This document shows positions 2,308 to 59,611 of a stretch of DNA of 64,000 nt, piece after piece. This DNA is from Physcia stellaris (Eukaryota; Ascomycota; Lecanoromycetes; Caliciales; Physciaceae), in NCBI GenBank assembly GCA_018902385.1, contig JABSSW010000022.1, forward strand, positions 496,001 to 560,000. Direction: 5' to 3'. Positions within the stretch are counted from its first letter, which is position 1. Each line of letters starts with the position of its first letter. Both the position numbers and the translations under genes were made by a program. Under the pieces are notes generated by a model, which did not search any database, was not told where the DNA came from, and saw only the letters and a program-made list of their open reading frames with translations.

Positions 2308-2822
2308 AGGATTGGACCTCACATCGGCCCGAGCAAGCACTGCGGTGGTATGAGGGTGCAATATGTACAATCAACATTTCCCTTTGCCCATATTGTATGG
2401 TATCACCGCAAAACCCGAGAATGACGACTATTTGGACGTTTGGTAACGTTCCTCTCAAAGCGGCAAGTTACTACTCTCGTAATTCTCGAGCATCTCCGTG
2501 CATGCGCTATGGTCGCAAGCTAACCGACTCACTAAAGACACGTGCATCCTCATGCTGCATGCATCGTTGAGTGGGGGACATGATCCCACCTTCTGACTTT
2601 CAGCTTCTTCCTGAAGGTGAAAACAACCGAGTCATTACTGCGCGAATGGCCAAAGTCTCGCTAGGGTCCGAACAGCGAAGCGCGCATTAATTATCATGCG
2701 ACTCTGCAGATATTCTTGCTTCGCGTGCCGACATCATCTTCGCCGATGTCGTCCATATTCGTGTAGCCTTGGTCACACGTCTTCAACCACCAAGTTTCGT
2801 TCGTTAGACCTCCTACAAAGGG
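2308..2822. promoter_or_regulatory. Shared upstream region of glycosyltransferase and methyltransferase
   Basis: This 515-bp gap separates two divergent start codons and must hold both promoters. I see no convincing TATA box or repeated operator, and only short unsupported open frames. Confidence 0.4.
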
Positions 2823-3581
2823 ATGCGTTCCAATGGCGAGTCCGGCACTCTATCCTCCCCGCCAGTGGTAGAGTCCCAGAGTGAGCAGAATGATCCAAAT
2901 CGTAAGCGGTTCAAATTTCAACACACATGGTTTGACGACTTTGTCCGAGCGGATTGGGAAGCCAATACCTCTCATCTAAGAGACAAGCGACTATCCATAC
3001 TTGAGATTGGATCTTTCGAAGGCGCGTCCACAACGTGGCTGTTGGACAACTTGATGTCCCACCCAGAGTCTAGCATGGTAGCAGTCGACACATTCGAAGG
3101 AGGGATGGAACACCAAGTTCCCGAAGAGGCGAAAAGATATGGACTGGGTACTCTTGAGCATAGGTTCCGCTCAAACATCGCCCAGTGTGTCCACGCCGAC
3201 AAACTTACCATCATGAAAGCACTGAGCGATGAGGCTCTGTTGAAGCTGCGAAGACAACATGCAACGTTTGACTTCATCTATATAGACGCCTCACACATCG
3301 CCATAGATGTTTTGCACGACGCTGTGCTCTCATGGCGTATGCTCTCCCTTGGCGGCACCTTGATCTTTGACGACTCTGCTTGGAAAGGATATATGGAGGA
3401 TTGCTTTAACCCAAGGATCGCCATCCAGTCATTTCTCAGCTGTGCAGTGCCCGAGATCGAGACGCGAGAAACCGAAGGACAGATGTGGGTGACGAAAGTC
3501 CCTAAGAAATTCGAAGCAACACCTAATCCCGACCCTGCTTTGTATTATTGGGAAAAGACTCCCCTGGGAGCAGTACCTTGA
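2823..3581 (+). CDS. Class I SAM-dependent methyltransferase (Methyltransf_24 type)
   Basis: A single exon encodes 252 aa. The Rossmann core is clear: the SAM-binding motif I is LEIGSFEGASTTWLL (about residues 60-75), followed by VAVDTFEGG with the acidic residue that usually binds the ribose, then DFIYIDASH and GGTLIFDDSAW. This DASH/DD pattern is typical of small-molecule methyltransferases of the Methyltransf_24 group, which often act on O atoms. The start ATG at 2823 has no competing in-frame ATG close upstream. It shares an upstream region with the glycosyltransferase and is followed by the PhyH dioxygenase on the same strand, so a tailoring role in a small-molecule pathway is likely but the substrate is unknown. 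Confidence 0.8.
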   Translation: MRSNGESGTLSSPPVVESQSEQNDPNRKRFKFQHTWFDDFVRADWEANTSHLRDKRLSILEIGSFEGASTTWLLDNLMSHPESSMVAVDTFEGGMEHQVPEEAKRYGLGTLEHRFRSNIAQCVHADKLTIMKALSDEALLKLRRQHATFDFIYIDASHIAIDVLHDAVLSWRMLSLGGTLIFDDSAWKGYMEDCFNPRIAIQSFLSCAVPEIETRETEGQMWVTKVPKKFEATPNPDPALYYWEKTPLGAVP

Positions 3582-3946: not shown

Positions 3947-5065
3947 ATGGCTCGTCGGGCGTCTCTTCATGACCCAACCACGGTGATCAATTACCTCGAA
4001 GAAGACGGAGGCGTGATATTGACCAATTTCACGACTATCGACGACCTAGAAAAGGTCAGCGCAGATGCGGCCCCATACATTGAATCTATTCTCAAAGATG
4101 TGAGTCCACAATGAGCAGCTTATCCATCAGCTTTCATGTTGAGAAATATGATTCATTACGGTATTCCAGCGAGCAGCACGAGCCCTTCCCAGAGAAACCA
4201 CTAGATGCATGCGCCTCTTCGGACGAAGTACCACCGCCCGGGAGACATGGCTTCAACAACCAGACTTGCTCCAGATAATCAACCATTTCTTACGCACTGT
4301 TTCGATACCATATAATGATGCTGGTAACACTGAATTATCTACGGATGCCATTCTATCCGCGGCTGCGACATTGGACATTGGGCCTGGGGTCAAAGCGCAA
4401 GATTTGCACAGGGACGAGTTCATCTGGCAACATACCCAGATGAACGAAAAAACTAGAGACAAATATGAGATGGGCCAGGATATTAGCATGGGACTACTGA
4501 TTCCTGGAGTTGACACTTACCGAGAGAATGGTGCTACTCTGGTAATAGGCAACGCTCTGCGCTACAACTCCAGCCATTATAAAGCTATAAAGATGCTAAC
4601 AGGTTTAAAAATACTCCAGTTTGTCCCTCGGTCGCACCTTTGGCCCCATTCCCGCCACCCAAGAATCGAGGAAGCAACTGCTGCTGAGATGAAAAGGGAG
4701 AAGCTCTTCTGTTTCTCGGATCAACAGCTCATGCAGGTGGCGCGAATCAGACCACACTTCCAAGGCCTATGCATGGCTTTTTTTTCTGCCGCTCATGGTT
4801 AAGGCCAGAGGTACGTGTGTTGATTGAACATCGGACAATTGCTCGTTCATGTCGAAACTGGTGCATATCTCTGCTCGAGAGCAGGCTGACTCGAGAATAG
4901 GAGAACCAACATGTCTGGTTCACCCGAGAAGAGATCATGAGATGGTCACCTGCAGCACAACGGCAGGCAGGATATCTCATGGATAATCCCTATCTCGGAC
5001 ACTGTAATGAGACTGATCCAGTCAATGTTTTCCGAGCGAGTGATGCTTTGATTGCGGATATCTGA
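3947..5065 (+). CDS. PhyH-family 2-oxoglutarate/Fe(II) dioxygenase, one apparent frameshift
   Basis: The family (phytanoyl-CoA dioxygenase-like) hydroxylates small molecules using Fe(II) and 2-oxoglutarate and is common in fungal metabolite clusters. Exons 3947-4099, 4170-4541, 4620-4810 and 4901-5065 are flanked by GT-AG sites. The iron-binding HxD is seen as LHRDEF in exon 2. The second histidine lies in STAHAGG in exon 3, but that stretch is read in a frame different from the start of the exon. Exon 3 is 191 nt, one base short of a whole number of codons, and the shift falls at a GGG run at 4696-4698. The rest, through the final exon ending ALIADI, looks fully conserved. Either the gene is a very recent pseudogene or one G was lost in assembly. 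Confidence 0.8.
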
Positions 5066-5947: not shown

Positions 5948-7603
5948 TCACTTTAGCACCATCTCAACTGTATACCTCTTCATCGTAGGGCACTGTTCTC
6001 GACTAACCGCCGTGACATCTTGAAGTATCTTACCGTACATACGTACAAGCTCCCTCATCCTCACTCCCGACATAAGTTTCTTGTCAAACTCGGCCACAAG
6101 CTCTAATCTGCCCTCGCTCCTCGGCCTCAGCTCAACCAAGGTACCCAGAGACATATTTTGCATGGTGGACAACCCTTCGTCAGGCAAGAGCAACGCTCCT
6201 CGTTCCTCCCCGTCTCCAACCCTGCCAATACCGCGCGCAAATATGTCCGTTTCAGGCACTTGAGGAATCAATAGCGACTGACAGTATCGCCCAGGCCCAA
6301 ACCTGCTAAAAAGTGCTTTCCACCCATACGGTTCCCACGGTATAGCTTCCAGCATATCTGCTTGTGTCCTCGTCAAGAGGCTTTGGATCGTTTCGGTCGG
6401 GTATATTTGGATACGACACGGTGTATGGGCAATGAGTGGACCCATTATTGTTTCAATGCCTGGAAATGCGTATTGCCTTCCTGATCGCTTCGAGACAAAG
6501 AAAACATCTGTGAATCCACTGGCTTTGCTAACCGTTAGGGCCCAGGCTACGTGCGCTATAGTTGAATAGGTGATTGATGATGATGCAGAATACGCTGAGC
6601 GGGAAGAGTCCTGGGACGAAATGTGATGAGAGAATGCAACTTCCTCGATGATCCGTGAAGATTCGTCACTAACTGGTTCGTGGTTGATATCAGAGCTGTA
6701 GAAAATGTCTATGTTCTGTAATTCTCTCAACCGATGCTCCCAGAAAGCTGTGGCTGCCGCTTCATCAATGGAGTTAATGTGTTCAATGAAAGACTTGAAC
6801 GGTGGTCTAAGTATAGCTTTGCCCTTAAATCTGTCAATATTGGCGAAGCTCTCGCCCAAGTCCTGAAATATCAGCTTCTTAGTCCAGCCATCAACGACTG
6901 CTTGTAGGTAAGTCCAGACGAGGTACTTTTCTTGTGCCTGAGAGATGATGGCAAAGCGAACCAGAGGTGTACCATAACCCATAATGCGTTTACCATTCAT
7001 CGACTTGTAATCGGCTAGGTTTGATCCCTGATCCCACTCATTGGAACCCTTGATCACGACTTGCCAGATTTTCTCATGGTGCTGGACGAGTCTCGTGCGT
7101 AGAATGGGGTTTCTCTGCTGGACGCAGATCCAACTCTCACGCAAGACAATTTCATCTCCCAAGAAATGAAATACCATTTGGTTGTGATACGTGCCATGTT
7201 TGAGGTAAGACTTCATGACAAAGTCTTGCTGCAAAGTGCAGGTGTCGATATCCTCGATCTGGCCACGACCGATACCGCAGGCACCTTCGCAGGCACAAAT
7301 AAGGTCTTCGTCCCAGCGGTCTTTGGGATTATCACTCCGTGCAGGGCTGTTCTGGAGCTCGGTTTCTCGACAGAGCGAGACCATAGCTTCTAACTCTGGA
7401 TTCTCGAAGACCTTGATGTTGTCCAAGACTAATCCACGGTCACGCGCAGCGCCGACAAGGCGGATGGCGGCAACGGAATCGCCCCCAAGGTCAAAGAAGT
7501 GAGGGTTCTTGTCGATGTCGGACTCTTCTAGGTCGAGGATATCACACCACATATCTATGAATTCAGCTCGCAAAGCCGCCCGTTCGAGAGGACCTGGTCT
7601 CAT
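5948..7603 (-). CDS. Free-standing carrier-condensation (T-C) NRPS-type protein, Fum14-like architecture
   Basis: One exon of 551 aa. The ATG at 7603 is preferred because the upstream extension begins with TTG. Residues about 5-80 form a thiolation (PCP) domain with the phosphopantetheine serine in FFDLGGDSVAAIRL (Ser43). Residues about 115-545 resemble an NRPS condensation domain. At the active site the usual HHxxxDG reads LQAVVDG, so both histidines are replaced while Asp and Gly remain. The same domain order and almost the same length occur in fumonisin Fum14, which esterifies a carrier-bound acyl group. Adjacent dioxygenase, acyl-CoA synthetase remnant and MFS genes fit an acyl-decorating pathway. 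No adenylation domain is present, so the carrier must be loaded in trans. The missing histidines leave catalysis uncertain. Confidence 0.85.
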   Translation of the reverse strand: MRPGPLERAALRAEFIDMWCDILDLEESDIDKNPHFFDLGGDSVAAIRLVGAARDRGLVLDNIKVFENPELEAMVSLCRETELQNSPARSDNPKDRWDEDLICACEGACGIGRGQIEDIDTCTLQQDFVMKSYLKHGTYHNQMVFHFLGDEIVLRESWICVQQRNPILRTRLVQHHEKIWQVVIKGSNEWDQGSNLADYKSMNGKRIMGYGTPLVRFAIISQAQEKYLVWTYLQAVVDGWTKKLIFQDLGESFANIDRFKGKAILRPPFKSFIEHINSIDEAAATAFWEHRLRELQNIDIFYSSDINHEPVSDESSRIIEEVAFSHHISSQDSSRSAYSASSSITYSTIAHVAWALTVSKASGFTDVFFVSKRSGRQYAFPGIETIMGPLIAHTPCRIQIYPTETIQSLLTRTQADMLEAIPWEPYGWKALFSRFGPGRYCQSLLIPQVPETDIFARGIGRVGDGEERGALLLPDEGLSTMQNMSLGTLVELRPRSEGRLELVAEFDKKLMSGVRMRELVRMYGKILQDVTAVSREQCPTMKRYTVEMVLK

Positions 7604-8628
7604 TGTGATCAAAGGATTGATTAAAGACAACAGTACAAGAGTGGAGGATGTGAAACCAGAGCCAAGTCAAATTAATCAGATATCGAAGATAAGCCAGTAG
7701 ATTCCTTCCAAATTTCCGAAGCTTCATAAAGATCGCTTGTGCATCGCGGGTGCGCAAGCTGTTTCGATTTCCAACACCGAGATACGAATATGCCACGCGG
7801 TCGGACATGACGTTCATTACGTCAGGTAGCGGATGGTCGCAGGACATTCGGTCATGCATAAGAAGTGAGGTAACTGAAGCTTTAGTGCAGTAAGTAACAT
7901 ATGCAGTGGCGGCCCATGCGGTGATGATCGGATCGGATGCGGTTGTTCTGCACTCGTATCAGGTGGAAAATCGGTGTCGAGATTCGGATGAGAATCTCAG
8001 GGGATCCTCAAGCATTCGCTAGGAATGCTGAGCATTTGCATCGGGACAAAATGAAAGCTTCTCCTGCTTCCGTTCCTCGACTGCCATCGCTTGGCAAGTT
8101 TTATTGTACTTTCAGCAGTCCTCCACTCCCTATTATTTGTCGGCGCGGAAGTGGGCTTTTTTTGCCACTCAGGGGTGGCCATACAGACCTTTTGACAGTC
8201 TCCTGACACCAGCGGGCCGCAAACAACTGTAGATAGTTTCCTATCGGCAAATCTATCAATGTTTAATAAAACAATATTACACACATAAAAGTTGAGGCTT
8301 GTCCAATCTCAATGTTGATTCGAACAATAGTTCAAGAAATAGATAAATAAGTTCAATGAACGTAGTAAAGACACTACTTGTTCCTAAAGATTCTAAAAGC
8401 ACACTTCCCCCCTCTTCGACTGCTTTTGGCAATCCCTATCACGAGTGAAAGTCTTGGCGGAATCGAGAACGTATTTGGGATGATCAATTCTCGGACTGTA
8501 CTTGTACGAATACCACAAGAGGTTATTTTGCGGCTAAGAAGTACGAGAAGGAAACTGTATGCTTAGTGACGCGGTATTCGGAGAGCGTCGGACACCGCCA
8601 CTAGCAAAGCGTCATCATCGATCTCGCC
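7604..8628. other. Intergenic region upstream of the T-C gene
   Basis: These 1025 bp carry the T-C promoter and the 3' flank of the MFS gene. Short open frames here have no motif or codon signal that I can support. Confidence 0.4.
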
Positions 8629-9972
8629 TCATTTTTTGGCAGCTGACAAAGCACGCCAGACTGGAAGAATACACAATGCACCTAGCAAAAGTGTAGCTCC
8701 TGAAAAGGCCTGTACCCACAAGAAGCTCGACCGCGTTGCATGTCCAGTCAGATCAAGCAGTGTGCCGGCAATGGGGCTTCCAAAGAGGACGGCGGGTGCA
8801 GCGATTCCCTCGACCATGCCGATGCGTGTTCCAAGCATATCGCTTTCGGGGCATAACTCAGAGGTCACCGCGGGTGGTAGAGCGATGTGTGCTCCAGCAA
8901 AGAAACCCCAAATTACACACCAGACGATAAAACCAGAAAGATTGTGAACTCCCATCCAGCAAAATACTAGAATCACGGTGCAAAACGCAAAAAGTGCGTG
9001 TGTACCAGCCGCACCAAGACGATTGGAATGTGATGCCATGTATCCTGGCAACAAACGGCCAAAGAATCCACCCGCATGGGCTATGGCGAGTATGTTGAAG
9101 CCCGTAGCTTGAGAAGCGTTCAAGACGGCCTGCGCATAAGACGGGATGTAGAACCAGGGAATGTAGAAGCCGATGAATATGAAAAAGTTGGCCAGCAGGT
9201 AGAAGATCGACGGTGGTTCTTTCCACACGCGGTTGTCCAGGAATAGGTGATGGCATGATCTTCTTCCTACAGAGTCTACTCGTGTTCTATCATCCCGGCT
9301 TCTTGGCAACAGCATCAGGGGAATGGCGATAATGAATGACCCAAGGGTCATGAAGCCCTGAATCTTGGTGGCCCAAGGGAAGCCAGACGCCGGTTGTAAC
9401 TGCCTGAACTCTAGCGGATAGATGATACCTCCTGCTAGCATTTAACACGAAAGATGATACTTCAGAGTGTAAGACGTACCGATACTGGTTCCCGAGGTGA
9501 CCAAGCCCATAGCCCAAGGGCGCCGCTTGTCATCACAAGCCGAGGCAATGAGTGCAAGACTAGGCACATATATCAAACCGCTCCCAAGGCCGACACAAAG
9601 ACCTTGCGACAGAAAGACCTGATAATATGATCTCGATAGACTTAGCATCATTGTGCCCAGAACCACCAATATAGCGCCCAATATCATCGCTATTGGCAAG
9701 TGACCTCTATCGAAAATCGGTCCAGTCAGGGCACCCACAGCAATGACCGAGCTTGCTTGCAGGGTACCGATCCATGATATTTGGGAAGAGGTGTACTTGC
9801 TCAGGAAGTCGCTTTGGTAGAACGATTGGAAGACCCCAAAGGATTGAACCACACCCCTTGACGCTCAGTCAACTACTAGCTTCCTTTTTCGTAGGATGGC
9901 GTACCAGCTGGCGGTGAATATCAGAAACGCGCCGAAGACTTGAAACCAAACCATTGAGCTGTGTGCTGCCAT
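8629..9972 (-). CDS. MFS transporter, monocarboxylate (MCT/Mch-like) family
   Basis: Exons 9972-9905, 9856-9480 and 9434-8629 give 416 aa in frame. The ATG at 9972 (MAAHSS) follows an in-frame stop. The first helix reaches the MCT hallmark: splicing creates ASWGVVQSFGVFQSFY, matching the G-x-x-x-SFGVF pattern of the family. Later parts include GPIFDRG, LCVGLGSGL and, in the C-terminal half, GRLLPGYMASHS. About twelve hydrophobic segments are expected at the plasma membrane. It lies next to the T-C protein on the same strand and may export or import a carboxylated metabolite; substrate is inferred from family only. Confidence 0.88.
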
Positions 9973-10653: not shown

Positions 10654-11153
10654 GGCTACCAGTACGCGCACCCCCCATTCCGGTACGTGCACCTCTCATT
10701 CGGATACGCGCACCTCCCTTCCCTGAAGGAGCATTCGAAGCTGCCGCCGGAAGTTATCAGGAACCCATCTTCCATCTCCGGTCAAAGTGCGATAAACGAA
10801 TCTTATTGTTGAAGATCTGTCTGCCGTCTGTTTGCTCTTTGCATGTTTTCTGGCCCTCAAATCAAATCGGTCAAGTACCAAAATTTCGAAGTATGATATG
10901 ACTGCGATACTGATTCAATTTTTTTCGAATGACGGCGAGACGCTTGATTGTATTGAATGACTCGTTGGTGGCGATGCAAATCTTTATTCAATTTGAAAGT
11001 ATCGCTACAGACGCGGCAAACGTGAAAAAAATCTAAAAGTCTGTCGCAGATTTCACAGATACCTCAACACCATGTATTAAAAAGCTAGTATAGCCGTAGG
11101 ATCAGGGCAGGGGGGTGCGCAAACCGGAATAGGGGGTGCGCGTACTGGTAGCC
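10654..11153. mobile_element. 500-bp hAT-like MITE (non-autonomous DNA transposon)
   Basis: The element is exactly 500 bp. Its ends (10654-10683 and 11124-11153) are 30-bp inverted repeats with one mismatch, beginning GGCTACCAGTACGCGC. It is bounded by perfect 8-bp duplications TTCTTATA. Inside each end a 21-bp unit with the core TACGCGCACC is repeated (three units on the left, two on the right), as in subterminal transposase-binding repeats of hAT elements. No transposase is encoded, so movement needed a helper. The right end lies 35 bp from the ATG of the truncated acyl-CoA synthetase. Intact duplications and near-identical ends suggest a recent insertion. Confidence 0.85.
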
Positions 11154-11161
11154 TTCTTATA
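11154..11161. repeat. Right 8-bp target-site duplication TTCTTATA
   Basis: Exact copy of 10646-10653, flanking the MITE. Confidence 0.8.
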
Positions 11162-11195
11162 CTGCTCGCTTTCTTTGAGCTCCTTGGCAGATTAC

Positions 11196-11700
11196 ATGGC
11201 AACCATATCCCAAGTTTTGAGACACAAAAACAGCCACGAACCAGCTCTGATTGGTTTAGAGTCAAGGTCTTCGACGTTCACCCATGGACAGCTCAATTCG
11301 CAGGTCAATGAGGTTCAAGACCGGCTGACACAATGCGGTGTAGCTCCAGGTACCACTATCACAATAAGCCTGCCTAACTCTGCAGAACTGGCTCTTCTCT
11401 TTCTTTCCATTTGTACGCATAGAGCAATTGCAGCTCCACTAAATCCTGCATACAAACAAGATGAAGTTGAATTTTACGCTGCCGATGTAGGTGCAGTTGC
11501 GATAGTAGTACCCAAGGAAGCATTCGAGAAGGACAGCGCCGCGGTACGTGCAGCGAAGGAACTTGTAATAGCAATCATCGAATGTTATTGGAGTGGAAAG
11601 GCCGTTTCGTTGGACCTCATATACAGGAGTGAGCTGTGTCACCAGGGCAGTGAAGCTAGGGAGGAACCTTGCGACGATGATGTGGCGTTGGTACTTCACA
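11196..11700 (+). pseudogene. Truncated acyl-CoA synthetase (Pcs60/Fat2/Fum10-like)
   Basis: The frame from the ATG at 11196 begins MATISQVLRHK and continues with TFTHGQLNSQV, GVAPGTTITISLPNSAELALLFL and AAPLNPAYKQDEVEFY. These are the N-terminal hallmarks of AMP-forming acyl-CoA synthetases. It can be followed to DDVALVLH, immediately before the expected AMP-binding motif (TSGTTGRPK type), and then similarity stops. Beyond the break the opposite strand carries another remnant. About two thirds of the enzyme is missing, so this cannot be functional. The MITE sits just upstream of the start. In the fumonisin pathway a Fum10 synthetase works with the T-C protein Fum14, which makes this neighbour meaningful as a relic. 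Confidence 0.7.
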
Positions 11701-12075
11701 TTGTCATTTGGGGCTATCGGTCTGGCCGCTGTATCTATCAGTCTTTTACGCATTGCTGCCGCCACCTGGCTCATGGCAGGAGGATTTGGCTCGGCGAAAA
11801 GGTAAGCCGCAAGACCTGCAACCTAGTAAACGCTGAGTCATACGTACAGAAACATATGCCACCGAGAGAGGGAAGATCGGGAGGTCGAGTCATACCATGT
11901 CAGCTGCGAACCCCGTGCTGCGCACCCTTTGGATCATGAATACCCACCTCTCCAGCGCAGATAATGCTCTCTCCTGGCGCCCATGCAATTTCATCAGAGT
12001 TGTCGAAGCCCCCTGAGAACTTCGCAGAATTACCAACTGTGGTAATTGACCCCTCCGATGATAGATAGATGTCGT
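11700..12075 (-). pseudogene. Fragment of a subtilisin-like (S8) serine peptidase
   Basis: Read on the minus strand from 12075, an open stretch contains GNSAKFSGGFDNSDEIAW and APGESIICAGEV. After a short degenerate gap follows VAGLAAYLFAEPNP and later MRKRLIDTAARPI. This is the order seen at the end of S8 peptidases (APGE-type segment, serine motif, VAGLAAYL helix). The position where GTSFA with the catalytic serine is expected reads GGICF, and stops and phase breaks surround it. It is a decayed piece inserted tail to tail against the acyl-CoA synthetase remnant. Assignment rests on motif order only. Confidence 0.45.
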
Positions 12076-36110: not shown

Positions 36111-37925
36111 TTATTGAAGGTTGCTAGGATACAATACTTTATCAAGTTTGTTGTATTCCTCCTTTAGAGTCCTTGGTGCAGTAAATCGCATCAACAAGTT
36201 GGCGCTTCCGGCCTTATCGCAGGTGCCACTGGATCTTGAGCCTCCGAATGATTGCTGTCCGATAACAGCACCTGTCGTCTTGCAGTTGACGTAGAAGTTG
36301 CCCGCAGCCCAGCGGAGTCGATTCTCGGCTTTTCGGATAGCGACTTGATCGTTCGAGAATATTGCTCCCGTGAGTGCAAAATTACCTCCCTGCTTGTCGA
36401 TGACGTCGAGCACATTGTCGAATTCGGCATCTGGATACAGATAGGCGACGAGAACGGGACCAAAGAGCTCGCGGTCAAACAACTCATGCTCTGGTGTTTT
36501 GGAAACGTACAAAGTGGGATCAACGAAAAAGCCTTTGCTTCCATCGTAAGTGCCTCCAATCACCCTCTCGAGCTGACTGTCCTGGTTGGCAGAATCAATG
36601 GCTCTTGTGATTTTATCGAAAGCAGCCTGGTTGATGACCGGCCCAAGAAAATTTTCAAACTCTTCGGGAGGACCGATTTTGACGGAGCTGAGCTCATGCT
36701 TCATTGCGTTGAAGAAAGCTCCGGCCTGACTCTGTGGGAGGTATATTCGTGCGCACGCCGAGCACTTCTGACCGGAATACTCGTAAGAAGCGCGAATGGT
36801 GTGCCTCGCAGCGTTTTCAATGTCTGCCGACGGATGAATCAGGTGGAAGTTCTTCCCCGACGTCTCACCCATCATTCTAGGGAAATCTCGATACTTCTTT
36901 CCGACGACACCCTCAGCTGCCTTTCCGTAGAGCGATCGGAACACGTCAGACGATCCAATGAAGTTGAGGGCCGAGAATTCTCGGTGCTCCAAGACTTTCC
37001 TTGTAATCATCTCCGCGTCGCCATTGACGAGCTGGACGACGCCTAGTGGAAGTCCAGCCTCGAGCAATATTTTATGTACCAGGTAGCTGGGGTAAACAGA
37101 CATAGGTGATGGTTTCCATACAACGACATTGCCCATTAGGGCAGGGGCGGATACGAGGTTGCCACCAATCGCCGTAAAGTTGAAAGGAGAGACCGCGTAG
37201 ACGAATCCTTCGAGCGGCCGCCAATCAGTCCGTCCATGATGGCCCGGGGAATTGACTGTAGGCTGTTTGTCGTAGATCTCTTGGGCGAAGCCGACATTGT
37301 AGCGGAAGAAGTCGGCCAACTCAGCGGCCGCGTCGATCTCTGCCTGCCATACATTCTTGCCCTGACCAAGCATTGTGGCAGCCATCAGTTCGTAACGATA
37401 CTTGCCGGAGACTAGATCTGCGGCCCGGAGAAAGATGGCAGCGCGGTCGGTGAAGGGCATGTCTTGCCAGCTTGACTTGGCGCTCAGTGCTGTCTTGATC
37501 GCAGCTTTCACATCGTCTTCCGAGGCGTCTCCATATTGAGCAAAGACGCTGCCATGTTCCGACGGCATCGGCATAGAAATCTTCTCCGAGTTGCCATTGG
37601 ATTTGGATGTAGCGAACCCCCCTCTTGCCGGAACCTGAAGAGGTAACCTTGATCTCAGATCATTTATGGCAGTCAGAAGCTTTTCTCGCTCCGGCGAACC
37701 TTTCGCGTAGTCAGGCTGGATCCGGTATTAGTGCTCATCTTTATTCTGGTGCTTGGGATACTGAGGACAAACATTTGGCTCGTTAAAGGGTTTGGGGACA
37801 GCGTAATGGCCACCAGTCGCAATTCCTCGTCTCGCCCCGTTGCTCAGTCTCCAGCCACGTGCTGCTGACGGATTTTGTACTTTTTGTAGAAGATTGTAGG
37901 CGCGTCGAGTGGTGAGCGGGATCAT
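36111..37925 (-). CDS. Delta-1-pyrroline-5-carboxylate dehydrogenase (ALDH4 family), mitochondrial
   Basis: Exons 37925-37773 and 37715-36111 give 585 aa. A presequence-like N-terminus with many Arg and no acids ends near ARRGIATGG, followed by the P5CDH signature NEPNPDYAKGSPERE made by splicing. The ALDH core has VSPFNFTAIGGN, the general-base Glu in MMGETSGKNF and the catalytic Cys in EYSGQKCSACARIY, with ELFGPVLVAY near the C-terminus. It oxidises P5C semialdehyde to glutamate; the mammalian enzyme also accepts the 3-hydroxy analogue from hydroxyproline. It is divergent from the permease at 38579. Confidence 0.94.
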
Positions 37926-41682: not shown

Positions 41683-41778
41683 TGACGAAGATGGGATTCG
41701 AACCCACGCTCTTTCGAACCACGGGCTTCAATGAAGAAAGACCTAAACGTGGCGCCATAACCACTCGGCCACTTCCTA
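41683..41778 (-). tRNA. tRNA-Leu (anticodon TAG) with a 17-nt intron; acceptor stem imperfect
   Basis: Read on the minus strand, a D-arm GCC-GAGTGGTTAT-GGC, an anticodon stem CCACG/CGTGG, a long variable arm and a T-arm GTGGG-TTCGAAT-CCCAT fold as a class II tRNA. The anticodon loop TTTAGG...C is interrupted after position 37 by about 17 nt, the usual site of nuclear tRNA introns. The anticodon TAG with G37 gives leucine. The acceptor strands TAGGAAG and CTTCGTC pair at only five of seven positions (1 and 3 mismatched), so the gene may be a diverged or pseudo-tRNA. The neighbouring gene encodes Sen54, a subunit of the enzyme that removes such introns. Confidence 0.75.
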
Positions 41779-44588: not shown

Positions 44589-45011
44589 GATGAGCGATAG
44601 GCGTGCAAAGACGAACCTCAGCAAACAGAGTCCCGAAGGAAACTTTGTCTCAGGCACTCGTACGAGTACATAATCTCGATAATGTACTAGTCATACCTCC
44701 GAATGTCGGATTTAAGGTTTTAGCGTGATCCAAGCGGAAAATATTCCGACACCAAGGCCAGGCCTGAGCGCGTGTTGCACGTGCTTCCGCGTTCTTTCGC
44801 ATCTCGACTGGGCTGGCGAGGCTGGTTGATTGCCCAAATGCAAATGTGCTTGCCAATCTACACATCCCATCCACGGCGTTGCTATACTGCTCTTCTTTGC
44901 GACCATGACTATTGCTGATCTTGCCGTATTGTACAAGCGCTTGATACTCAGTTCAGAATCTCGACTTGCTCCGGAGCTTTCAGCACTCAAACAGATACGA
45001 AGAAAGAACAG
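44589..45011. promoter_or_regulatory. Divergent promoter, Elongin C and EME1-like genes
   Basis: 423 bp between two divergent start codons. No clear motif is seen. Confidence 0.4.
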
Positions 45012-46931
45012 ATGATAATGGCCCCCGAAGCAATCATTGACCTTCTCAGCACGGATGACGAGTCTCCTGCGCAATCAACTTCTCTCAAGAAGAATACAGC
45101 CACAACAGACTTTCGGCTTAAGTCTGAATCCCTCTTTCTGTCGGATCCCCCGACCGGCGAAGACTTCGCATCTAACCAATGGAGCGAGAGCGCTCCAAAG
45201 CGGCGAAAGTTTACTAAGTCTCCTCCACTTCAGCATAAAACGTGCTCCTCGACATCGGCATCTCTTGCGCTGTTAATGCCCAAAAACAATCGCAAAGCAT
45301 CAGAACTCTCAGACGATATCATTTTCACCTCTTCTGCCGGCATAGCTAAGGCGCACTCTCGCTCTATCGAACAGGAGGCCAATCTTGCTTTGACGGACGA
45401 GTCTGAGGATGAGCTTCCCGATGACATCTTCTCCATTGAAAAAGATACTGTGGCTCCTCAAATTTCAGGAAAGGCGGCAAGTTTCCTAGCAAAGGTCAAA
45501 GGGAAACATGCATCAGTGTCCAGAAAAACTCTTACTGACGGCAAAACTACTGCCAAAAGGAAACCCCCCAGAATCTCCTCCCTATCGCCCAGACCCACTC
45601 ATGACAATAACCATAGTGCTGAAAATACACAACCTCGAGCTAAGCCGGCTAGAAAGCTCAAGCTTACAGACGAGGAGAAGGCATCGAAAGCAGAGGAAAG
45701 GGAAGCTTTGAAGAAAGCAAGAGCCATACAGAAAGCCAAAGACAAAGAGGCGGAGAAAGAAAAAAGGCGACTTGAGCGTGAAGAGAAGGCTCGGGAGAAG
45801 CAACGTGCTGCAGATCTTGCAGAAGTCAATAAGGCGAAAAAGGATCGTAAAGAAACATGCAAGGAAATGATTGTGGACCTACCTATATCGATCGAAGGCT
45901 CAAGGGTAGACGACCAGATTCGAGAGTTTTTGAAGAACCAGCAAATCACAGCTGCTTCCTACCAAAGCCCCATTCCCCACGTTATCCGCTGGAAGCGCAA
46001 GATTGATTCCTGCTTTGACGAGGAGCAAGGTCACAGAGTTGCAATACCCAAGGAGATACGAGATGAGAAGCATGCCTTGTGTCTCATGTCAGCTAAGGAG
46101 TTCGTAGAGCTAGCCACTGCGGATACGAGCGATGTTGATATTGATACGCTGGAAAACCACATCCAGAAGATGAAGACCAGGTATACAGGATATTCCATCA
46201 TTTATATTGTGGAGGGGCTCGATGCATGGATGCGCAAGAACAAAAACGCACGCAACAGAGCTTACCAGGCTGCTGTCTTAGGGCAAACCGAAAGCACTGA
46301 CGGCACTGCCCCTGCATCTAGCCATCAAGCTTCTCGACGGAAGAAGCAACCCGAGGTTCCGATAGACGAAGATATGATCGAGGACGCTCTTCTCCGGCTG
46401 CAGATTATGGAACAGTGCCTGGTCCATCATACAGCGACTTCTTTCGAGTCGGCGGAATGGGTAGCTAATTTTACGCAACATATCTCACAGATACCTTATA
46501 AGTGAGGACTGTTCGAACTTCTCATTGTCATGGGCTGACGGTCATGCAGGCAAGATCGGATGCGTCTCGTCACGTCATTCTGCATGGACAGTGGCCAGGT
46601 CAAGACAGGAGAAGACAATGACGATACCTACATCAAGATGCTACAGGAGGTCAAGATGATAACTGTTTCAATGGCCCATGGTATCGCGGTGAAATATCCA
46701 ACTGTCAGTCGGCTTTTATCCGGCTTCAAAGAGTTAGGTCCTCTTGCCTTGGAGGATGTCAGAGTAGGTCAACTGCTTGGCTTTATCTTTCATTGGCTAT
46801 GCTGACGTAAAATCGTCTAGAAATCTGCAAACAAGGATGGTGCTATCTCTGACAGGAGGATCGGCCCAGCGGCTAGCAGAAGGCTGCATACTATCTTCAT
46901 GGGGACTGATCCTTCCTCCACTGATGTTTGA
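45012..46931 (+). CDS. EME1/Mms4-like structure-specific nuclease subunit (ERCC4 domain)
   Basis: Exons 45012-46501, 46550-46763 and 46821-46931 give 604 aa. The N-terminal third is acidic and Ser-rich (IDLLSTDDESPAQ), with nuclear-type basic stretches such as PKRRKF. A long charged coiled coil lies at about 220-290 (KASKAEEREALKKARAIQKAK). The ERCC4-like region follows (VIRWKRKIDSCFDEEQG, SIIYIVEGLDAWMRK), and the end has a helix-hairpin-helix-like segment (AHGIAVKYPTVSRLLSGFKELGP). The catalytic ERKxxxD motif of Mus81 is absent, as expected for the partner subunit. With Mus81 it would cleave branched DNA in the nucleus. The ATG at 45018 is an alternative start. Confidence 0.85.
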
Positions 46932-51425: not shown

Positions 51426-54400
51426 ATGTACATCAACGCGACGGTCGTCTCAACCGCCCTCGCGGCGTTGAGTTCGATTTTCAGCAAACGTACCGTTGTC
51501 GCTCCGGGTACACAGCTGCGTATTCTGCCTCTGGGGGCGTCTATCACTGTCGGATATAAATCCAAGGACTACAATGGATATAGACAGTATCTTCTGGATC
51601 GTCTTTCTGGCAGCAATGTTCAATTCGTCGGCACCGTTCGATCTGGGACCATGAAAGACAATTGGAATGAAGGACATTCCGGTTACACTATTGCAACAGT
51701 CCAAGGTTCCAACTCCGAAGCTCTCTCCGAGCGGCCCAATGTAATCCTGCTCCACGTGGGGACCAATGATCTCGATTATGACTCCAGTAAGTATCTCTCA
51801 GCATGAGAAATATGTCCTGACAAGCCTACTATGAGTTGAAATAAGCACTTTTCCGGAGTGAAGGTGCTGATTTTTCTACTTGTTGAGCATACTGCTAACC
51901 CGCATTTGTAGCCGGATCCTGGACTGATGATAGAGGCGCCGCTGATCGTCTGGGACCCCTCATTGACGAGATTATGGGAGTGTGTCCAGATGCTACGCTT
52001 ATCGTCGCGCAAATTGTCGGTTCTCTGATTCCTACGGTCCAAAAGCGCTACGATTCATACAACGCAAAGATACCTGGTGTCGTTCAGAAGCGCGTGGATG
52101 CTGGAAAGCATGTCTTGGTCGTTGATGCAACAGTGATCAAAGGATCGCTTATTAACTCAGGTATGACCTTCATCAGGCCTCTTGTAACTCGCAAGCTTCT
52201 CGTCAACGGCCCTGCGTCCTTGCAGGCCTAGGTTAAGGGATGATTGGTTACTGATCTATTGTCCCCAGATGATAAAATTCATCCCACTGATGAAGGCTAC
52301 TCGAAGTTAGCCGACGTTTGGTTCGGGGGTATACAGTTGGCCGACTCAAAGGGCTGGATTAAGCCTCCAGTGAGTGTACCACGCATTCATCCAGCAAATC
52401 CTCTATGCATCACAAAGCGAGACAACAAACCTGTCATCACTGGAGAGAAGTCTGGGCACTTTTGTCACGAACCACCAAAATGGATGAAGACCGGTTCCGA
52501 CGGTCGAATCTCTCATGGTGTGGGTACGAATGGTCGTGCGGTATTTGAAAAGAATTGGGAGAAGAGAATAAGAGCTGGCCCTGGTATTGATAGGAAGGGT
52601 CAAGGACATGTAAAGTGAGTCTCGGAACTTCGTATTTCTAGCCCTTGTGCTTGTTGCTTGACAGTATGGCAACTTCTGACAGCCATATTTCAAGCGCGTA
52701 AGGATTGCTTTTTCTGAAACGCGTGCTAATCTCCGTTCTCTAGGTTTGCAGACATCACTGGCAATGGTAAGCGGAGACAGCCCTGTCAGCCTCAAAATGT
52801 AATCGGTGTGGCAAGGAATGGCATCGTCGCAATCTCCACGCTTACCCAACTTATGAGATTCAAGCGGCTTGCTATTTGCAACAGCTACCTTCGCGGAGCA
52901 TTGATTTTACGTCTTGGCCCGTCAAGTGGCTAACACTTCTTCAATCTGCAGGTCGAAACGACTTCATATGGGTCGACGAAGCCACCGGCTCTCTCCTTGT
53001 CTACGGCAACTCTGGTACTGGTTCAGCCATCTCTTGGGTTCCAATCAACGACAAAAAGGTTATCAGCTCTGGACATTGTGCGCTTCAACGCCTTAAATTT
53101 GCGAAGCTCACTACGAGCGGAAAGCCAGATTATATCTGTATCGACGATTCAACGGGACAAGTAGATGCATGGCTCAATGGTGGTCCGGATGCTTCGGCGC
53201 CAGATGGCTGGAAGTGGACTGGTCCAATACATATATCTGAGAAGCTCCCAGGCGGTACCCGAGATTCGATCCTATTTGCAGACATTAATGTATGTTGCTC
53301 CCTTTTCGCGATACATTTTATTACTAAACATCGTAGGGCGATGGGCTTGATGACTTACTCGTGAGGGGTAGCAAAGGAGAATTGGACCTCTGGCTCAATG
53401 TTTGGAAAGCGAGCTCGGCGGAAACCTATTTCCAGTCTATTGGCCGGATTGCATCGGGCACTGGTACAGCTAATAGTATGTCCTGCCTCACCGTCGCTCC
53501 TAAAGTTGGCACCTTGCCAAAAAAGACGCATGAGTATCCAGAAAGCACGATGCCTTTATTTTGGATGACTAACTTGAATTTCAGAGACTCTAGCAGATTT
53601 GAACAATGACGGTAAGCCATTTCAAGTGTACTTTATTCATACCCGACTGACACTCTTAGGCCGAGCGGACATCATCATCTTCAACGGCGAAGGCGCTGCC
53701 CATGGCTTTCTCAACGTACGAGGCCAAAAAGAAGGGTTCCCGGTCTGGAAAGAACAGCCCGTCATCGCTGGAGAAATTGGCGAGGATTGGCGTTCGCTGC
53801 GAATGACTGACCTCACTGTAAGCTACTATCCTTTGCGTCTAGGAAAATTGCTTATTGTGCACATCAGGGGGATGGCAAAGCTGAGCTCGTCTATGTCCGA
53901 GATTCCGACGACTCCCTCGACATCTATGTCAACAACGCAAAGACTGCAGATACCAGCGTCGTAGGCGACGGAACGTTTTTCGCTGACCTGGATGGTAATA
54001 TAGTCTTCAGCTACTCACCGTAGCTTCACTGACGCTTGCACAGGGGATGGCCTCGACGACAAATTTCTTATGGATAAGAATGGCCAAATTATTGCTTACA
54101 TAAACGGCGGACTCAATGCGAAGGCTTCATACGGCTGGCTCTGGCAATTACAGAACAACGGCGATCCAATAGCACTTGGCGTTGGAGCGAAGCGAGAGGA
54201 TTACCGTTGGGCAGATGTCAACGTGAGAGAAATGCTTAGCATCGTGGGTGTTGGAGTATTGCTAACCGCGTTGCAGGGTGATGGCCGAGCAGACATGTTG
54301 GTCGTCGATCCGGATACCGGTATAATTAGGTGCTGGCTGAACCTTGGGCCTAACAAAGCAGCCAAGCCTCGAGGCTGGGTGTGGGACCCTCAAGGCCAGA

Positions 54401-57400
54401 TCTCTCCAAGCCGAGGGGCGGCTGCAGGTGTCTTCTTCGGAGACATTGATGGGTATGTTCAGAGTCAAGCCCGTCGACTCCAAGGTGAACTGAGAGTGTG
54501 ATGGCTGACGATCTGCTACAGAGATGGACGCGCAGATCTGCTATGGATCAGCGAAAAATCAGAGATAACAGTATTCATCAACACCAATAGCGGTGGCCCA
54601 AGGTGAGTTTTCCAAGCAACTCCTGTCCATACATATCCGTGCCCGCCACTATCGTCGTTGATGATATGAGAATCATGGCGCCTATTGCACAAGCGGCGGC
54701 TGTTTCAAGTACCCCGACTAATCCTGGCTAGTGGCTGGACTTGGTCTCAAGTACCAGGCGTCTTGAATTTCAACGCTGGCTATCGCAAAGATATTCGGGT
54801 TGCCGACTTCAATGGCGATGGATATGCAGACATTGCTTGGGTCCATCCAATCGATGGGTCAACGGTCGTCTGGATCAATGGCGACTATCGCAAAGGACAA
54901 GCAGGATGGGCCCGCCAAGTCCCATTCCCCAAGGACGTCGCTCCTGGATTCGGTTTTAGTGGCGCAAATGTTCACTTCGCAAGGATCCATCTGGCTCACG
55001 GAAGGGCTGACTACGTGGCTGTCGCGCCAGGGAGTGGTGCTGCTTATGTCTGGAAGAATTATTGTGACCATGTGGAGCCTGCAGATGGAACCAGCCTAGC
55101 AGACCAGGAAACCAACGGTGTGCCGAGCGGTTGCAACGTTCCCGACGACGAACCTGCTTCTGGAGGCAGCAGTGATGGAAATTCTGGCACTGGATCGGAC
55201 AGCGGCTCCGGTGGAGATTCTGGCGGGGGTTCTGGGGGCGATGATAATGACAATGGTACTTATAATGCACTCGTTGCGGTGACATCCAAGCTGACTTTCA
55301 CTAGGCAATTCAAACACTCCACTAATCCCATTCATCACAATTGGGGATTCTACCTTCACTGAGAATTCAGCAACGCAAATAGTGATCAGTGGTCAAACTC
55401 TGACTCCCGGTGGCCAGATAACTGTGGGTGGTACAACGGTATCACTGGACTCTGATGGGGATGCAGCTGTTGTTGGTGGCACCACACAAACGGCAGGTCA
55501 CATTGCACCGAGTGATGTGCCTATCACTGGGGCTCCAACATTGACACTCGGAGGTAACATGAGTTTCACCTTACCTGGCAACCCGAAGCTAATGACTTAA
55601 CTTGCGGCAGGTGCAACATTTACCGCTGACTCGTCAAGTCAGTTTGTCATCGACGGTCAAACGCTGACTCCAAATGGCGTTATAACGGTCTCTGGAACGC
55701 CCATCAGCCTCGGCTCTGACGGTTCCACAGTCGTCATTGCAGGTAGCACGGAAGCTCTGGGCAGTCCCAGTATCACGAGCGGGCCCCAGCTTGTCCTGAC
55801 CCTCGGTGACTCTAGCATTACTGCCAACTCCAATTCTCAATTTGTTATCGGAGGTCAGACACTCACACCTGGTACGTGTATCTCGGGGCTTTTTCTTTCA
55901 TTCTCGTGATGTCGCTTGTGTTTTGAACCATGTTCTTGAAACAAATGACACATTTGGCTTCAGAAACATGTTGCACCTCCCGCAAACGCAGCTTAGATTA
56001 GCAATGCTGACTCCGACATCTCCATAGGTGGAACAATCACTGTATCCGGCACTCCAATACAGCTAGGATCCGACGCTTCTTCCGCTGTCGTTGGTACAAG
56101 CACTGAAGCAATTGTCTTTCTACCCCCCACTGTAGGACCACCTTCCGCATCCGCTTCGCCTCCCCTCGTCGGACCAACTTCCTCTTCAACTTCGCCTCCC
56201 TTCGTCGGACCAACTTCCTCTTCAGCTTCGGGTCCCTTCGTCGGACCTTCCACCACTGTAGTCTACCCCTGCGGCACCCGTTGCACCACCACCATGACAT
56301 TGGCCAACAACGAAGGGCTTACTATTGACGGATACACCACAATACCCAGTCCAACGAGGCATGCCGGATCCCGACCTACCTCTGGATTTGAGGCATTTCA
56401 TGCTTTACGACCTTTCGCAAGTCATGCCTTGGACTCGCTTCATGCTGCAATACATCTTATCGGAGGTTTTGGTCACGGTTCAAGCGCCCAAGACTTTGCT
56501 TCAGCCACCGATACTCTCGCCGGGGCTTTCGCTGGTAAGTCCTTCGGTGTTGTTTTGTTTTCTTTGTCCCTCAAGATGGTGTTCCCATATCTGTTATTAT
56601 CTATGAGTTGGATTCACTGACTATCAACGCCCCTTTTGACTGGCTACGACATCTCAACTTTCCGACAGAGATCGGCATGAGCTAATCGTCATATAGACTT
56701 GTCTAGCCTGGGTGCCGATCTGGGATCTCTTCTCGCGCCCGGTGGATCCAACACCCTCACTGCGACGGAGAATGCCGGGGTCGAGTTGAGCTTCATAGTG
56801 ACTGCTGTGGACACTCCTACGTACGAAGGTGCACTGCTTGAGACTGAACCGCTCACTGGTGCCCCTGAGGTGGCCAGTGTTGGCGACACTCTCACTCAGA
56901 CGACGCCGGAGATTGAGGGAGCTATCAATGAATTGACTCAACAGACAGGACGAGGCTTGTCGCTGCTTCAGAAATGTATCGCTAATCCAGGAGGTCCAGA
57001 CTGCTTAAAAGTAGCTGGTGGCGGAATTACTAGCATCACCGCTGCATTTGGCGGTGCCTATAATCTCATTCACGGGGTTCAGAGCTTAAGCAATCTCGCC
57101 AAGGGCTCTCCTAAGGGTACACCAACACCAACAGCTAGCGCCAGCGCAAGTTCCAGCTCAAACGCGGCTGAACCAACAAAGTGGATACTCAACACTGTAC
57201 CTGGTACCTCTGTGGAAGCATTCGACAAATTTATCAAGACATTGCCAGACCGCGGAGAGGGTCATCGCATTGTTTTCCCCAGTTTACCTGATCAAGTTTA
57301 CGTGGGTTTGATGACTAGAGCAGAAGCTGAAGAGGTCAATAAGAATCCCATCGTAGATCAGCTCTCCCAAGATCCTGGCCGTAGTGCTGGACAATACGGC

Positions 57401-59611
57401 GACGTCGGATTCGGGCTTACAGATCCTTACGATGATCGATACACCAATTGGAATGGGGAACTAGTGCATGGCAAGGTATCTCCAAGGGCCCCAACTTACA
57501 GTTTTACATCAGAAAACTTTGCAGTTGCGCACCTTAGATTGCTGTCGTATCCGAGAAATCAAAATTGGTTCGCCCAACCACTCTCTGCCACTGCTAAATA
57601 TACACGAGAAGCTTCCGATGGAGAGGGTACTTTTGTGTATGTCATCGACTCAGGTTGCGATTTCTCTCATCCAGTAAGTTATTCTTAGGCTTCTTCGCTA
57701 TTTTCTCTCCTTCGATATGCTATGTTGTGTAGCAATAGTGCTGATTATCCCACTTAGGAGTTCGCAAGTATCGTGAAACCGGAAAAGTACGCCGTATCGA
57801 CACTGAAAACCCCGGACGGAGATCAAATGGGGCACGGAACGCACGTCGCAGCGATGATAGTAGGCCAGTACAATGGGTGAGTCATCTGGGTGATGCTTTT
57901 CCTCGTTGAAGACTTGACCAAGTTTATTTTCCACATCTTTGACGTTCACTATATGCTCTCACTCAACGCTTGGCCGAGACCGTAACCGCAATGCTGACGC
58001 TATGTATCAATAGCGCTGCTAAACGAGCTAAGATCATTGATGTTAAGATGGGTGATGAGGACCTTCCAAGAATGGAGGAAATCTCCGAAGCCTGGAGATG
58101 GGCTGTAGATGATATCATGATGAAAAACCGTCGGGGCAAGGCAACCATAAATTTCAGCTTCGGTAAGTCTTCAAATATACCTTCGGTACTCTGTTCTTAC
58201 AAATGTCAGCCCAGGGGTACCCAGATGCAGTAGATCCCAATGGTCATTATCAATTCAACATCCCTGGGCTTCAACCGCCTAAAGTGGCTGACCACTGGAT
58301 AACTCTGCTCAGATTGGCATGGGAGAATGACATCGTTACCGTTACCAGCTGCCTGAACAATGGAGAAGCCCTTGGCAACTTCAACCCCAATCGATTTGGA
58401 AGTGCCAACAACGCTCTAATCACGGTCTGCCGCTTAACAGCGACTGGAAAGAAATCCGATAAGAACGCAGTCAAGAAGGCAGCAACATTCGGATCAGACA
58501 AGGGAAATCTTCGTCTTGTCGGGAATGACGACATCTACGCCATCGGTGAGGCCCTTCAGCTCCCCGTTTCCAATTCTCAAACCGTCTTTAACCCCGCAAC
58601 CGGCAAGCCTCCCCGCGACATGTATGAGAAAGGTGTTGAAGGCTCTTCATTCTCTGCCCCTCAGGTTGCAGCACTGTCCAGCTACATTGCAGGCTCGACT
58701 ACGCAATTCCCGCCCTTGCCAGCCGGTTCTGTCTCCATGGGGCGGAAGAAGCAACTTGTGGACCTCATGCGGAGTGATAGTAATTATGACACGCCAGGGG
58801 CAGCCTACAATGGCGTCCGCGAAATTTGTACAAATCCTCCCACAGGACCCCCGAGGACTATTCGGTAAGTTATCACAGAATCCGTAGCGGAGACACTACT
58901 TAACGTGGTGGCTTTTAGGAGAGATGCCGACAATAACTCAACGTCAATGCTGCTTTCTCGTCAACATAGCTCCGACTATCTGGATCCCGTAAGAGTCTCC
59001 TTGAGGTCTCAGTGTTTTGTCCCTTGGCGCTAACTAATGATTTTAGTTTATCTGCGGGACCGAACGTGGTGTCAATGGATTCAGAATTTCCGGCTTTCAG
59101 CGAGAGCCAGTCGATCAGCCACTCCTTGGTACCCACATCACGTATAGTGCCAACTATCTAGGAGCATGCCGGGCGAGAGATTATAAATTCTCGATCAACC
59201 CTGAAGGATGGCTCAAGGGTGCGTTTCCCGAGGACCTCACGGTCGCGGACAGCTATGACCTGAGCGCATGGGCCGCCGGCCCTCGATTCTGCGGTGCTCT
59301 CGGGCTGTCATTTACTAAGAATGACCCGATCGGACAATTCCCAGCAGTTACTTACAGTAAGTCACTACTGTCTATCTCTAGGGTAAATACCACTCCAGTA
59401 GACCTCGCTAATGCTTTTCTTTTCAGCGTACGTTGACACTGATGGCAAAACTGGAATCTGTATTTCCAGCGATAATAATGGGGCGTTTCCGGCATATGAG
59501 TGCGACTTCGGCCCCGCGTTCGACGGCAAATGGCAGGAAACCGTCTATCTCACCTGCAGTCCGCCAACGGATGACCCTGGATACTGCTCTGGCAGCGGCA
59601 CTAGTCAATAG
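51426..59611 (+). CDS. Giant secreted fusion: SGNH esterase + FG-GAP propeller + repeats + S8 subtilisin
   Basis: Twenty-three exons with GT-AG introns sum to exactly 2070 codons (2069 aa), every phase matching. After a signal-like N-terminus and KR site, the SGNH esterase (about 28-225) has Ser39 in LPLGASITVG, GTNDL and the D-x-x-H pair in DDKIHP (205/208). FG-GAP/VCBS repeats (about 320-860) carry calcium-loop motifs such as DINGDGLDD, DLNNDGRAD and DVNGDGRAD. A Gly/Ser/Asp linker (to about 909) leads to at least three GQTLTPG..ITV repeats (about 910-1110), a Pro/Ser tandem of 13 aa, then an S8 peptidase with Asp in VIDSG (about 1562), His in GHGTH (about 1600), Asn in CLNNG (about 1710) and Ser in GSSFSAP (about 1807). 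A Cys-containing tail ends at 59611. Two genes misjoined is the alternative, but no stop or start lies at the junction. Confidence 0.85.
55872..56027 (+). repeat. Introner-like element copy B (intron 15 of fusion gene)
   Basis: This 156-nt intron starts GTACGTGTATCTCGGGGC and ends CTCCGACATCTCCATAG. It is homologous along its length to intron 1 of the permease at 38722-38876. It splits a GQTLTPG repeat unit between the last two bases of one glycine codon, and its removal restores GQTLTPGGTITV. The branch-like motif GCTGAC lies near the 3' end, as in copy A (ACTGAC). Confidence 0.85.
56140..56257 (+). repeat. Coding tandem repeat, 39-bp unit
   Basis: Three imperfect 39-bp units encode a 13-residue Pro/Ser/Thr-rich segment ending PP(L/F)VGPTSSS. 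They form a likely O-glycosylated spacer before the peptidase half of the fusion protein. Confidence 0.7.

Follow-up and report, generated by a model that had tools for sequence, protein, structure and literature searches.

Comparison with described systems

An association of FG-GAP modules with a serine protease is known from Streptomyces avermitilis, in which a trypsin-type protease carries such modules (PMC2605481). We analyzed a 64,000-nucleotide stretch of the Physcia stellaris genome (contig JABSSW010000022.1, positions 496,001 to 560,000; hereafter the window) in which positions 51426 to 59611 probably likewise combine FG-GAP repeats with a predicted secreted serine protease. The Streptomyces enzyme, however, belongs to the trypsin family and not to S8, and the available part of its description does not mention an esterase, whereas the locus studied here begins with one. 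Most serine protease families are single-domain according to the accessible portion of one fungal survey (PMC5567314), and the S8 partners named in the accessible portion of another (PMC5371821) are I9, Fn3-like, P-protein, galactose-binding-like and ankyrin domains; in these portions neither survey names an esterase-propeller partner for S8 proteases. No description of an SGNH-FG-GAP-S8 fusion was found among the matches listed in the open-access literature (titles and abstract starts), which does not contradict the initial annotation, to which no such fusion was known. We consider, with a probability of about 0.8, that the locus is one gene for a soluble secreted protein in which a CE3-like SGNH esterase and an FG-GAP propeller are followed by a mucin-like stalk and, as an exchanged C-terminal tail, by an S8 protease of the proteinase K-like type.

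The head of this protein, that is, the esterase with its propeller, was searched for in genome and viral contigs. The single-head search of genome contigs gave no relative among 12 candidate stretches, and the three-head alignment search gave three among 110. One of the three, from Kitasatospora aureofaciens (L060), is an open frame of 530 aa that begins with TTG and matches query residues 29-350 (31% identity over 341 columns). As in the head described here, an SGNH domain precedes FG-GAP-like repeats recognized by eye; yet the bacterial protein ends after the propeller, and its frame contains neither mucin-like repeats nor a protease. The SGNH-FG-GAP arrangement without the tail already exists in bacteria, and the fusion would be an unusual variant of a known modular build. 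In viral contigs the head had seven relatives among 105 stretches, all of them within query residues 1-205, the SGNH part.

Gene structure and domains

The gene model comprises 23 exons with 6210 coding bases including the stop codon, and all 22 introns are of the GT-AG type. It was built by a dynamic-programming fit between a given ATG and stop, followed by three hand corrections, each of which preserved the frame: a 48-base intron and a small exon were taken out, and a nearer acceptor was used at 58918. The intron (at 52370, with an AAG acceptor) and the exon (at 52665) came from the first fit and were dropped for the structure of the initial annotation. The corrected fit reproduces the in-phase join over 8.2 kb proposed in that annotation, with a whole number of codons and 2069 residues. 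Many short introns are also found in the genes of the window.

The main Pfam run used the first version of the model, of 2047 residues, split in two. An SGNH/GDSL domain (Lipase_GDSL_2, PF13472; E 6.4e-15, 56.5 bits against a cut-off of 32.9), FG-GAP repeats (FG-GAP_3, PF13517; 2e-36, 124.8 bits over four stretches, above the cut-off) and a protease domain (Peptidase_S8, PF00082; 5.3e-17, above the cut-off) were identified. Two more families exceed their cut-offs over the propeller, TcdB_toxin_midN with 45.9 bits and PliI with 30.2 bits, neither of them in any single stretch by itself; we read both as cross-matches of the propeller repeats. The esterase residues Ser39, D205 and H208 are found at the positions given in the initial annotation; those of the protease are D1566, H1600, N1713 and S1810. 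Since the S8 alignment made with MAFFT had the oxyanion Asn in the wrong place, N1713 was assigned by eye.

Ser39, Gly86, Asn114 and Asp205/His208 line up with the two other heads of this genome (on contigs C24 and C32, see below) and with the structure 2VPT, at the positions that we take to be the Ser, Gly, Asn and His of SGNH blocks I, II, III and V. A search of the SGNH domain against the PDB at E values up to 0.001 gave three matches only, 2VPT (2.6e-22) and 5B5S and 5B5L (9.3e-5 and 9.9e-5), all three presumably acetyl esterases of the CE3 type. These chains consist of the esterase domain alone, whereas here the domain is followed by propeller, repeats and protease. The NCBIfam model for the acetylxylan esterase AxeA1 scored 27.8 bits, far below its cut-off of 700. 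Another CE-3 structure, 2C71, is listed as a metalloenzyme in the available part of a review (PMC6282417), which therefore does not settle the mechanism of the CE3 family.

Related loci and exchanged tails

Searches of the 44-Mb genome (147 contigs) placed the head at three loci: the window, C24 and C32. The C24 paralogue (about 1550 aa) is colinear with residues 11-1214 of the protein, mucin-like repeats included (39% identity over 1245 columns, 768 bits). Its linker exon, with the same linker as here, ends in a GTAAGT donor, and no Met precedes the first repeat in the repeat exon. C32 has the head in common with the other two, and its last propeller blade, glycine linker and tail start lie within one exon. 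A long C-terminal extension is therefore present behind each of the three heads. The start of C32 is unsettled, as three of the four starts tried gave a model and the peptide of the fourth was not found, and in the C24 tail model one intron, which scores -2.2 and lies in a frame open throughout, may be wrong.

The tails of C24 and C32 showed no Pfam family at E values up to 1, and parts of both match C1:994524-997234 (four matches, 49-55% identity). These matches are on the same strand as GH18 matches at C1:997822-999002 and just behind them, and the open frame between the two sets has a cysteine pattern that resembles, by eye, a chitin-binding module. From this arrangement we take the C1 region to be one putative chitinase gene. 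With both of these tails matching in part beside GH18, tail exchange is seen in this family: the head is common, the tails are swapped and, of the three copies, the one in the window alone shows a protease. Since such heads bear different tails within one genome, a comparison of the tails would put the modular build of fungal secreted enzymes to the test.

At least eight further contigs, including C24, carry the mucin-like repeat module. In the nine repeat stretches read (the longer frames in part), a Ser/Thr-rich sequence is followed by a hydrophobic C-terminus that by eye resembles that of glycosylphosphatidylinositol-anchored wall proteins; in contrast, no hydrophobic C-terminal anchor was found in residues 1856-2069 of this protein. 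Since the repeats of the window match Pfam below cut-off only, the repeat seems to have no family of its own. The loci C5, C36, C9, C67, C47, C32:19484 and C2:938834 represent a mucin-like wall protein family with a repeat of about 55 residues. Two further likenesses to C24 were rejected. The pre-protease region matched the middle of C24 with a score reached in none of 200 shuffles, but the match consists of 16 residues of Ser/Thr/Pro low complexity; the score between the C-terminal tail of this protein (C22) and the C24 tail was reached in 64 of 200 shuffles.

Probable continuity of the gene

The repeats align with each other and with those of C24 across introns 14 and 15, so these two splices are supported by homology. 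All four exons from 14 to 17 have a positive codon score in the frame used and a negative one in the other five frames, with codon usage taken from the remaining exons of the model. Intron 16 (56535-56696) leads from the last repeat exon to the protease exon with a GTAAGT donor, and exon 17 runs unbroken from the pre-protease region into the catalytic Asp motif. Upstream of the propeller-repeat join a better phase-compatible donor, GTGTGC, is present at 55118, and the join thus does not depend on the donor of the model (55256) alone.

A separate start for the protease was looked for in 35 combinations of an ATG (54900-56689) with a donor in phase with one of four acceptors. The sole donor scoring above 0 was the exon 16 donor of the model itself (5.2), reached from M1169 with no signal peptide; none of the 35 combinations joined a usable donor to a signal peptide. 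The one-gene fit, in a variant of 2063 residues, scored 399.6. The highest score for two genes without overlap was 380.9, from a pair in which the first exon of the second gene has two bases. Taken together, the locus is probably one gene, and a single transcript would span the whole of it. The one-gene reading of the initial annotation thus gains from the propeller-repeat order kept in C24, the consensus donor between repeats and protease and the lack of a separate start, and falls short of proof.

The protease tail

The IDSG, HGTHVAA and GSS motifs of the tail fit, by eye, the proteinase K-like clade as set out in the available part of PMC5371821. In a separate run PF00082 scored 67.6 bits against a cut-off of 21.8, over model positions 1-250 of 288. 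Alkaline protease 1 (PDB 8GKO; 2.5e-17) and proteinase K both match the domain, but not beyond its residue 115. The Asp, His and Ser motifs are common to these enzymes and the tail. Unlike them, the tail has about 1500 residues in front, extra loops, no detectable I9 propeptide and changes around the oxyanion Asn, where SCLNNG is found in the place of AAGN. The best NCBIfam model, T7SS mycosin, reached 47 bits, far below its cut-off of 278.75.

Within the genome, the only relative of the protease tail is a distant S8 sequence on C2 (35%, 1.8e-5), which scores 139.2 bits on PF00082. The 309 residues preceding the S8 domain have no relative elsewhere in the genome, and a 266-aa piece covering most of the region without known family matched no Pfam family.

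Function and alternative readings

If the protein is secreted as proposed, the head could act on wall polysaccharide or glycoprotein by binding or deacetylation, and the protease could cleave protein at the same place. The protease may free itself near the start of the mature domain, at about residue 1480-1536, as its family does, and a single chain would then yield the two enzymes in equal amounts. Whether tethered to a sugar-ester-binding head or released from it, the protease would let both activities meet on acylated glycoprotein or wall material at one spot, a direct line of attack for a fungus. Given one gene, we put self-cleavage at even odds. Self-processing, which the initial annotation had raised, is plausible by analogy with proteinase K-type maturation, but the I9 propeptide was not detected. 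A further proposal, which we make tentatively and consider rather doubtful, is a secreted polyprotein that unites a wall-binding CE3-like esterase with a self-freeing protease, tails of the chitinase or the protease type being placed on a common SGNH-FG-GAP head; the head would then serve as an oversized prodomain that silences and targets the protease until cleavage.

Several observations weigh against the reading of one gene for two enzymes. The donors of two linking introns are weak (55256 GTACTT, intron 13; 55554 GTAACA, intron 14), a point passed over in the initial annotation, and one frame of intron 13 has a codon score of +0.11, which does not fall below those of exons 14-17. Some out-of-frame starts at 56400-56442 reach a hydrophobicity of 2.19, against 2.21 for the native one, with donors of -1.2 or worse. 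The one- and two-gene fits were made between given ends, with the joining built in, and with a codon table from the one-gene model. The C24 and C32 models were also fitted between chosen ends with the joining built in, and the independent evidence from these loci is therefore their order, strand, donor and lack of a start. As the distant S8 sequence on C2 is the sole relative in the genome for the stretch made up of the S8 tail and the preceding 309 residues, the join of repeats to protease is without a second example. Block I of the esterase, also passed over in the initial annotation, reads G-A-S here and G-D-S in C24, C32 and 2VPT. The best PDB match to the protease covers residues 1-115 of a 299-residue query, and the score of the PDB alignment around the catalytic Ser is meaningless by itself. 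Pfam searches at E values up to 1 and up to 10 gave no I9 propeptide, and the propeptide candidate had a single, unrelated match among PDB sequences (E 1.6).

The most probable alternative, that of the initial annotation, is that the two enzymes of the single gene remain covalently linked and work together on one substrate, with the propeller as the tether on acylated glycoproteins; we regard it as possible, with the odds somewhat against it. It agrees with the long Ser/Thr/Gly/Pro-rich stalk between the enzymes and with the failure to detect an inhibitor propeptide by Pfam, PDB sequence and fold searches. In the last of these, Foldseek with the poor model of the propeptide candidate gave 299 matches at E values up to 10 and none at up to 0.001, and a subtilisin propeptide was named in none of the best 50 of the 299. 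The predicted structures were unusable, with a mean predicted local distance difference test score of 52.4 for the candidate and 34.1 for exon 17; given so poor a fold model, a very divergent I9 propeptide may still be present. Enduring linkage is opposed by the behavior of proteinase K-like enzymes, which are activated by self-cleavage from the part preceding them. In these enzymes an I9 propeptide is normal, as stated in the available part of PMC5371821, and the failure to detect one here counts against the main reading.

It is unlikely that one or both enzymes of the single gene are inactive, with the protein serving as a scaffold for binding. The GAS in place of GDS and the departures around the oxyanion Asn are what such a scaffold could show, as are the PF00082 score, modest beside that of the C2 paralogue, and the restriction of the PDB matches to the first part of the S8 domain. 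Yet the nucleophile, His and Asp positions are retained in both enzymes, and the frame is intact across 6.2 kb of coding sequence. The C24 head also departs from the consensus, with GTNN in block III where the other two copies have GTND, so that two of the three heads of the genome are off consensus, each in another catalytic block.

A pair of neighboring genes, the first for an SGNH-FG-GAP protein ending in the linker or repeats and the second for an S8 protease with an unfound first exon, is improbable. Besides the weak donors and the coding-like frame of intron 13, it could draw on the reading frame, which without splicing would continue to stops at 55362 or 55600, and on a brief hydrophobic leader (MVFPYLLLSM) that intron 16 contains at 56576. 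This leader, however, needs a GTTGGA donor with a score of 0, and none of the tested starts combines a usable donor with a signal peptide. The two-gene fit without overlap also scores below the one-gene fit, and in C24 the repeats follow the propeller directly, with a consensus donor. We favor the single gene with an exchanged protease tail; its features are listed in Table 1.

Other features of the window

Table 1. Features of the gene and of the rest of the window (positions in the window; the putative cluster frames keep the order in which they were listed)
Feature	Position	Strand	Basis
Whole gene, 23 exons, 2069 aa	51426..59611	+	Fit and hand corrections
Signal-peptide-like start, dibasic KR at residues 21-22	51426..51500	+	Hydropathy only
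SGNH/GDSL esterase domain, residues 26-237	51501..52369	+	Pfam PF13472, PDB 2VPT, alignment
FG-GAP propeller, residues about 316-846	52604..55065	+	Pfam PF13517/PF01839
Gly/Ser/Asp-rich linker, residues 847-909	55066..55255	+	Sequence
Intron 13, propeller-to-repeat join (critical), donor GTACTT	55256..55304	+	Gene model
Mucin-like repeats, three copies of about 55 residues each (residues 919-1106), split by introns 14 and 15	55331..56107	+	Alignment with C24 repeats, genome matches
Ser/Thr/Pro stretch and region without known family, residues 1107-1406, spanning intron 16	56108..57169	+	Pfam (266-aa piece) and genome search, both negative
Propeptide candidate, residues 1407-1480	57170..57391	+	Position only
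S8 subtilase domain, residues 1557-1855	57620..58784	+	Pfam PF00082, PDB alkaline protease 1 (first 115 residues)
C-terminal region, residues 1856-2069, and stop	58785..59611	+	Sequence
Condensation and carrier domain	5951-7666	-	Pfam, putative cluster
MFS transporter	8632-9441	-	Pfam, putative cluster
AMP-binding enzyme	11133-11936	+	Pfam, putative cluster
Methyltransferase	2808-3578	+	Pfam, putative cluster
PhyH dioxygenase	4152-4799	+	Pfam, putative cluster
Aldehyde dehydrogenase	36114-37727	-	Pfam
ERCC4-type nuclease domain	44919-46502	+	Pfam

Based on Pfam matches in frames that lie close together, the window likely contains a secondary metabolite cluster of the nonribosomal-peptide type (Table 1). 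Rfam identified a 96-base tRNA at 41683-41778 on the reverse strand (37.3 bits), which ARAGORN in bacterial mode did not report; it is perhaps an intron-bearing fungal tRNA.

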